From Buchnera aphidicola (Lipaphis pseudobrassicae) (lineage in GTDB: Bacteria > Pseudomonadota > Gammaproteobacteria > Enterobacterales > Enterobacteriaceae), in contig NZ_CP034870.1 in NCBI RefSeq assembly GCF_005081185.1, forward strand, positions 289,695 to 353,694: a stretch of DNA of 64,000 nt, written 5' to 3'. Position numbers and translations under genes: made by a program. Under the pieces are notes generated by a model. The model saw nothing but the letters and a program-made list of their open reading frames with translations, was not told the origin of the DNA and did no database searches. This document shows, one piece after another, positions 37,448 to 38,667 of this stretch (positions are counted from its first letter, which is position 1; every line of letters begins with the position of its first letter).

Positions 37448-38667
37448 ATGAATTTATTACCTTTTTTAATTGCAAAACGATTGTATCTTAACGAGAATAA
37501 AAAAAATAAAGTATTTATCATTTCCTTTTTATCTAAAATTGGAATATCTATTTCTGTTTTTTCTCTCATCATAAGTTTAAGCGCTTTAAATGGATTTAAT
37601 ATTTTACTAAATACAACAATTTTATCCAGTTTTCCCCATGGAATCATTCAATTAATTGATCAATCTTCACTAAAATGGAAAGATGTAATTACAAAATTAA
37701 AACTTTCTCCAGGAGTTCTTTATTCTGAGCCATATATTATCACTAATGGATTATTAACTAAGCGAGATATAGTTAAAATAATTGAAATTAAAAGTTTTAA
37801 AGATATAAAATATTTTGAAAATAATATTTTTAAATATAAAAAAATCAATTTTTTAAAAAAAAAAATAATATTATTATTTCATCAAGTTTAGCTCAAAAAT
37901 TATCGATTAAAAAAGGTGATTTTATCAATCTAATTTTTTTAAAAAAAAATTTTTTTAAATCTAATCTAAAGTCTTTCTCTTTAAAAGTTATAGGAATATT
38001 TGAAGATAATGGTATTTTAAATTCAAATATGGGATATGTACCATTTGAATTTTTTAAAAAATTTCTTATTAAAGAAAATATTATCGATAAAATTGAATTG
38101 CATATGTCTGATCCATTTAATGCAAATAAAATTATAATAAATGCAGCAAAAAAACTTAATACACCTCTATTATTATACACTTGGATTAATGATTATAAGT
38201 ATATATATCATGAAATTAATATGATAAAAGCAATTATATACCTATCTTTATTATTTCTGATAATTATTTCGTGTTTTAGCATTACATCTATCTCTTTAAT
38301 GACTATTTCTAAAAAAACAAAAGATATCGCTATACTACGTAGTATAGGAGCGAATGATTTCCTTATTCAAAAAATTTTTTTATACTATGGTATGAGGTCT
38401 ATTATTATTTCTACTATAATGGGTTTATCTTTAGGTATAATAACAATCTTGAATTTTAAAAAAATCATATTTTGTTTAAATACATGCTTTAAAGATAATA
38501 TATTATTAGATAATATTTATTATAAAAATTTTTTTTTGTTAGAATTAAAATTACTAGATGTTTTAATTATATTTATTGGTACATTAATAATAGGTATGAT
38601 AACAAACTGGTATCCAGCGTATTATGCTTCACATCTTAATCCTAGTGAGACATTAAAAGAATATTAA
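37448..38667 (+). pseudogene. lolE: LolE, lipoprotein-releasing transmembrane protein, frame broken at an A11 run
   Basis: Two frames together make one full LolE (about 407 residues). The first runs from the ATG at 37448 to a TAG at 37889-37891. The second is open from about 37864 to the TAA at 38665-38667. They meet at a run of eleven A residues (37855-37865). One added A (or two lost) joins them, giving ...FLKKKNNIIISSSLAQKL..., and SSLAQKLSIKKGDFINLIF matches the conserved LolE periplasmic segment. The second half keeps the three C-terminal helices and NWYPAYYASHLNPSETLKEY. The rest shows no stop or other damage, so the lesion is recent, is rescued by transcriptional slippage at the run, or is a sequencing error. 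Confidence 0.9.

Follow-up and report, generated by a model that had tools for sequence, protein, structure and literature searches.

The lolE gene of the Buchnera aphidicola symbiont of the aphid Lipaphis pseudobrassicae is frameshifted at a run of eleven A residues (A11) and is probably still used, since the split is inherited among related symbionts, the run is kept in them, and the sequence past the break remains under purifying selection. A first-pass annotation of the same DNA had proposed that the gene may still be used, and the comparison with other Buchnera genomes favours that proposal. As to how, we consider it rather likely from the sequence comparisons that RNA polymerase slippage at A11 gives full-length LolE.

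Within the window, that is, the whole 64-kb stretch of DNA analysed, lolE is the last gene of an operon-like lolC-lolD-lolE series, as judged by gene order (Table 1). The break in lolE is confined to positions 37840-37891, an interval that holds an A5, a T6 and the A11 run, and A11 is its obvious place; the run was found exactly where the first-pass annotation had put the break. That annotation had also described an upstream frame of 147 codons ending just after the run, about 268 further codons open in the neighbouring frame, and intact lolC and lolD genes. All of this was borne out: the upstream stop finishes 26 bases past A11, the neighbouring frame has 266 open codons after the run (37867-38664; 275 counting upstream), and both partner genes are open. 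One added A reaches the second frame and, as read from the sequence, loss of an A from the transcript leads to an immediate stop, again as had been claimed. The A11 run is the sole break in lolE, and in the downstream frame ATG, GTG and TTG are all absent before 38029.

Table 1. Features of the lolCDE locus, in window coordinates.
Feature	Position	Strand	Remarks
lolC, open and intact, 399 aa	35555..36754	+	ORF; best matches NCBIfam TIGR02212 and PRK10814 LolC, each under its cut-off
lolD, open and intact, 227 aa	36747..37430	+	ORF; NCBIfam TIGR02211 over its cut-off (344.8 vs 307.75 bits)
lolE upstream frame, 147 codons	37448..37891	+	LolE up to the run, the codons of the run, a few out-of-frame codons and TAG at 37889-37891
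T6 run adjoining the A run on its 5' side	37849..37854	+	likewise before the run in the symbionts of B. brassicae and D. noxia; H. tataricae symbiont without T6
A11 run, presumed slippage site	37855..37865	+	starts in codon 136, phase 2, as in the symbionts of B. brassicae, D. noxia and H. tataricae
lolE downstream frame, 266 codons and stop at 38665-38667; FtsX permease domain PF02687	37867..38667	+	

Residues 5-116 of the upstream piece correspond to residues 6-117 of Escherichia coli LolE and to positions 5-119 of the LolE model NF008357, and the downstream piece corresponds to E. coli LolE residues 148-411 (E value 3e-47). The LolE model scored 75.6 bits with the upstream piece and 198.7 bits with the downstream piece, each alone below the cut-off of 439 set for the whole protein, compared with 30.7 and 63.6 bits for the LolC model NF008076. 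By these scores both pieces fit LolE models better than LolC models, which identifies the gene as lolE. The claim that the peptide past the run is conserved LolE sequence agrees with the E. coli alignment, and the second frame was found in all 36 genomes compared. Because this frame is conserved LolE in 36 of 36 genomes, we rejected the reading that it is open by chance.

The second half of lolE was present and open in every one of these 36 Buchnera-genus genomes, with a stop at the very end in one of them (G018). The gene was in a single frame in 27 genomes and split in nine, and in all nine the downstream frame was one base short. The split copies belong to the symbionts of L. pseudobrassicae (G000), Brevicoryne brassicae (G006), Diuraphis noxia (G027) and Hyadaphis tataricae (G003), to that of Brachycaudus cardui (G008) and its sister genome G022, and to those of Uroleucon ambrosiae (G016), Uroleucon sonchi (G019) and Acyrthosiphon pisum (G029). 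Plasmid matches agree with the naming of G006 (99.9%) and G003 (100%), and a plasmid stretch of the L. pseudobrassicae symbiont shows 86.7% identity to the B. brassicae symbiont. All of the breaks fall in one variable linker, the widest bounds being codons 119-161. On a lolC and lolD protein tree the splits amount to four changes, three of them common to related symbionts: the group of four that includes the window (ultrafast bootstrap 84), the B. cardui symbiont and its sister (100) and the Uroleucon pair (100), plus the A. pisum symbiont alone. When labels were shuffled, 20000 times each over the 36 tips and inside the 19-tip clade that contains all splits, at most four changes were needed in 7 and 438 trials, respectively. 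The same lolE changes, and nearly the same values of omega, were obtained on a combined protein tree with support values and on a nucleotide tree without them, which may be unfinished. In the group of four, the second halves differ from the Lipaphis copy at 20-37% of residues and carry no extra stop or frame break.

Two copies appeared to have lost their start codon, and in both cases we rejected this as a sign of decay. The first aligned codon of the H. tataricae symbiont gene is ATC, and an in-frame ATG lies three codons upstream; in the U. sonchi symbiont the usual ATG has become ATA, immediately preceded by TTG. In the symbiont of S. graminum (G001), lolE is open over 413 codons (C1:327920-328720 and upstream), whereas the corresponding BUSg_286 carries a pseudogene mark in the accessible text of PMC3246468.

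Comparing run length in related Buchnera genomes had been suggested in the first-pass annotation. In the Hyadaphis-Brevicoryne-Lipaphis-Diuraphis group the A run is exactly 11 long and starts at the same codon and phase in all four genomes. The eleven columns of the run are identical in the four genomes (11/11), compared with 17 of the 45 columns just upstream and with 9 of the 22 upstream columns in which Lipaphis has A. When columns were shuffled, a conserved stretch of at least 11 arose in 788 of 200000 trials; a preference for AAA codons may account for part of this conservation. The keeping of run length among homologs is the sign of purposeful slippage named for 'pseudo pseudogenes' by Baranov et al. 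2005 (accessible text of PMC1088944), and it was found within the group of four; the cases in that work differ in that their largest group consists of IS elements and in that runs of nine were considered there. Across all nine split genomes, the runs vary in place and length. Every one of the nine split genomes, and five of the 27 in-frame ones, have a linker whose longest A or T run is at least 10, a contrast that would also be expected if breaks arise in long runs. Ten or eleven A's stand at the break in eight of the nine split genomes. The ninth is the A. pisum symbiont, whose break sits at a different run from the Lipaphis A11: its linker A10 lies outside the break window, which holds a T9 run and part of an A9 run (codons 124-136).

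Selection was estimated with a codon model (GY94/F3x4) in a script of our own rather than a published program, on the first 118 and the last 264 codons of lolE, the linker between them being left out. For the last 264 codons, the background gave an omega of 0.138, the ten branches descending from shared splits gave 0.153, and the stems together with the A. pisum branch gave 0.151, values for which the long branches bring the synonymous side near saturation. Fixing omega at 1 on the ten post-split branches lowered the log likelihood from -15147.96 to -15281.13 and was rejected by 133 log units. On the same branches omega was 0.135 for the first 118 codons of lolE, 0.155 for lolC and 0.080 for lolD, and ten in-frame tips taken as a control gave 0.158 for the second half. 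These estimates would predate the splits if all splits were recent and independent. The clustering of the splits argues against that, at a level of only about 0.02 within the 19-tip clade. When groups were fitted one at a time, with the other split branches placed in the background class, omega of the second half was 0.110 in the window's group of four, 0.185 in the B. cardui symbiont and its sister, 0.101 in the A. pisum symbiont and 0.313 in the Uroleucon pair; on the Lipaphis branch alone it was 0.077. The Uroleucon value was significantly above the rest (0.313 vs 0.137 for the background; log likelihood -15142.67 vs -15148.51 with one omega; twice the gain, 11.7), and lolC on the same branches gave only 0.181, so that lolE seems to be relaxing in this pair. 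Of the hallmarks of a pseudogene, relaxed selection together with further lesions, we found relaxed selection, and that in the Uroleucon pair only. For the Lipaphis gene, the first-pass statement that the rest of lolE shows no decay is in agreement with the lack of any further break and with purifying selection on the second half.

Apart from the A11 of lolE, no A or T run in the window is 11 or longer. A scan of the window for frame breaks at runs of at least 7, flanked on either side by at least 60 open codons, returned five rows. The A7 and A11 rows both fall in the lolE break; the remaining three were rejected as ordinary gene boundaries (trpC/trpB, trpB/trpA and lolC/lolD). The whole chromosome (641,221 bases) holds 19 distinct A runs of at least 11, and contig C2 holds three. 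Eighteen of the 19 chromosomal runs were inspected, the run at C1 614861 and the three of contig C2 being left out: 12 sit in a single frame with at least 40 open codons to either side, four fail this criterion, and two are frame breaks, in lolE and murF. An A11 run is not rare in this genome. The longest of the listed A runs, 21 A's at G000:C1:612416-612436, is among the 12 in a single frame, one to which no gene is assigned.

If slippage operates at lolE, RNA polymerase would sometimes slip on A11 and produce transcripts one A longer than the gene. The lengthened transcripts would yield full-length LolE and the remaining ones a 147-residue fragment, and the full-length fraction would join LolC and LolD as the second permease subunit. 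A gene that depends on slippage would select against interruptions of its run, which would account for an unbroken A11 in an otherwise variable linker. Transcript slippage is the likeliest route, supported by precedent and by the fact that all the breaks go the same way, and published work makes it a better guess than a -1 ribosomal step. The precedent invoked in the first-pass annotation is found in the literature: the review PMC5009743, in its accessible text, gives 12-50% of transcripts as corrected in frame for Buchnera and Blochmannia genes frameshifted at poly(A), and PMC3164680 reports correction by slippage for a locus of the Rhopalosiphum padi symbiont. According to PMC5574713, insertions during Buchnera transcription increase exponentially as runs lengthen to 11, and homopolymer runs take 151 of 157 insertions vs 16 of 57 deletions. 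If slippage mainly adds bases, the genes it rescues would be those lacking one base, as seen here. Against it, the CirSeq survey of pea-aphid Buchnera LSR1 in the same paper reports, in its accessible text, no frame-restoring transcription error, and lolE is split in the reference genome of the A. pisum symbiont, the same species.

Use of lolE might also be sustained by the ribosome, shifting by -1 on an in-phase A AAA AAA of the run while the mRNA stays unchanged. The run contains two such heptamers, at 37855 and 37858, which keep this reading in consideration, and -1 is the direction needed in all nine split genomes. We nevertheless regard it as unlikely: the region 37840-37930 folds no better than chance (z -0.71, with an equally good fold in 52 of 200 shuffles), seven A's suffice for a heptamer where eight of nine splits have 10-11, and the break window in A. 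pisum contains T9 and part of A9. Use as two separate half-proteins was rejected, since the break maps to the interval between residues 117 and 148 of E. coli LolE and no start codon precedes 38029 in the downstream frame, which by the topology of LolE would begin inside a periplasmic domain. That lolE is a plain pseudogene, its break fixed by drift, with no full-length LolE made and too little time elapsed for decay, would agree with the listing of pea-aphid lolE as a pseudogene (PMC3246468), with the relaxed selection in the Uroleucon pair, and with low constraint as one of the two readings of repeated homopolymer inactivations given in PMC3164680, the other being regulation. This explanation is quite improbable for the Lipaphis gene, whose group of four shares the split in spite of its residue divergence, with no more lesions and an omega of 0.110.

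Each Buchnera cell might carry many genome copies, some of them in frame, with the assembly recording the commoner length. Buchnera is described as highly polyploid, and polymorphism within strains, including single-base indels, is reported for the symbionts of A. kondoi and U. ambrosiae (PMC3164680), but mixed chromosomes alone give no reason to expect four genomes with an identical run length and phase, and we hold this to be very unlikely. An error of sequencing or assembly that undercalled the run by one base would explain why each of the nine splits lacks one base, since undercalled homopolymers err in that direction. Such an error is extremely unlikely: the split occurs in nine of 36 genomes from several submissions (the CP0348xx series, CP013259, CP047588, CP002648 and BA000003), the 12 of 18 inspected long runs that lie in one open frame argue against systematic undercalling in this assembly, and the pea-aphid gene was kept as a pseudogene in a study that drew on two further strains to tell pseudogenes from sequencing errors (PMC3246468).

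Transcript slippage, the reading we prefer for lolE, could extend to genes of the cell wall. In the same genome murF is split at an A11 run (G000:C1:242993-243003, minus strand), outside the window. A murF match was obtained in 35 genomes, and in 29 of these the frame is broken at the homologous run, with one base too few in 28 and a shift the opposite way in G030; the run has at least 9 A's in 34 of 35; G018 carries a further murF lesion near the end. Past the break, in a fit over 42 branches that left out about the first 11 codons after it, omega was 0.098, and a value of 1 was rejected by 580 log units. Homopolymeric frameshifts in murF, the same kind of break and also at A11 in the Lipaphis symbiont, are described in PMC3164680, where four independent inactivations were proposed from few genomes; the larger sample requires six changes. 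With 29 of 35 copies out of frame and the run kept in 34 of 35, the murF break looks more like a long-lived state than a series of independent inactivations. The examination of murC and murE covered frame offsets. Two-piece murC genes were found in 10 of 35 genomes; all ten lack one base, and their break windows contain 8-13 A's. In the five genomes examined for it murE was shortened, four copies being one base short at A10 and that of G018 having the other offset. Lesions in murE were seen in G001, G022 and G028.

Over lolE, murF, murC and murE, 51 of 53 split copies share the one-base-short direction. These copies are not independent, given parsimony counts (gains plus losses) of 4, 6, 7 and 3 or 4 changes, respectively, and a contraction bias of long runs could be an alternative source of the shared direction. 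The Rhopalosiphum maidis symbiont (G007) has poly(A)-split copies of all three genes, murC, murE and murF, and these may be read through. In PMC9116674 (2022), Aphidini Buchnera are reported to be without murF, murC and/or murE, yet R. maidis symbionts build a wall. According to the accessible text, coding sequences with stops or frameshifts were removed there before orthology, and one sentence of the discussion takes MurF as still present in Aphidini; the word slippage has zero occurrences in the main text. We put forward, tentatively, the possibility that lolE, murF, murC and murE are lastingly one base short at long poly(A) runs and kept by selection, so that the envelope would depend on slippage, perhaps as a brake on dosage, and the mur genes of Aphidini would not be lost. 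A regulatory role for such breaks has already been suggested in general terms (PMC3164680).

Poly(A) rescue in Buchnera is already known, and the pea-aphid lolE has been printed as a pseudogene (PMC3246468). The slippage-rescued genes of Buchnera and Blochmannia (PMC5009743, PMC3017870, PMC3164680) resemble lolE in coming from an AT-rich insect symbiont, in having a break at a long poly(A) run and an open remainder and, in some cases, in a break said to be conserved between species. They differ in that their transcripts were measured, whereas slippage at lolE is proposed here from sequence comparison. The LolE pseudogenes listed for the Buchnera of A. pisum and S. graminum (PMC3246468) concern the same gene, with the same type of state in A. 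pisum. Among the matches listed by our literature search, which covered few subscription journals and no supplementary tables, there was no account of lolE slippage or of an inherited lolE split. What is new is the comparative evolutionary evidence for a split lolE that appears to be kept, which is stronger than evidence from a single sequence.

These results indicate that a broken reading frame can persist while several aphid genera diverge, with the protein past the break still constrained. They bring evolutionary evidence to the question of whether, in shrinking genomes, a gene frameshifted at poly(A) is on its way out or continues to be read. Where annotation pipelines discard genes of this kind, the capabilities of the symbionts are then misstated. 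If the tentative extension to the mur genes is true, their retention would explain the cell wall of the Rhopalosiphum maidis symbionts.
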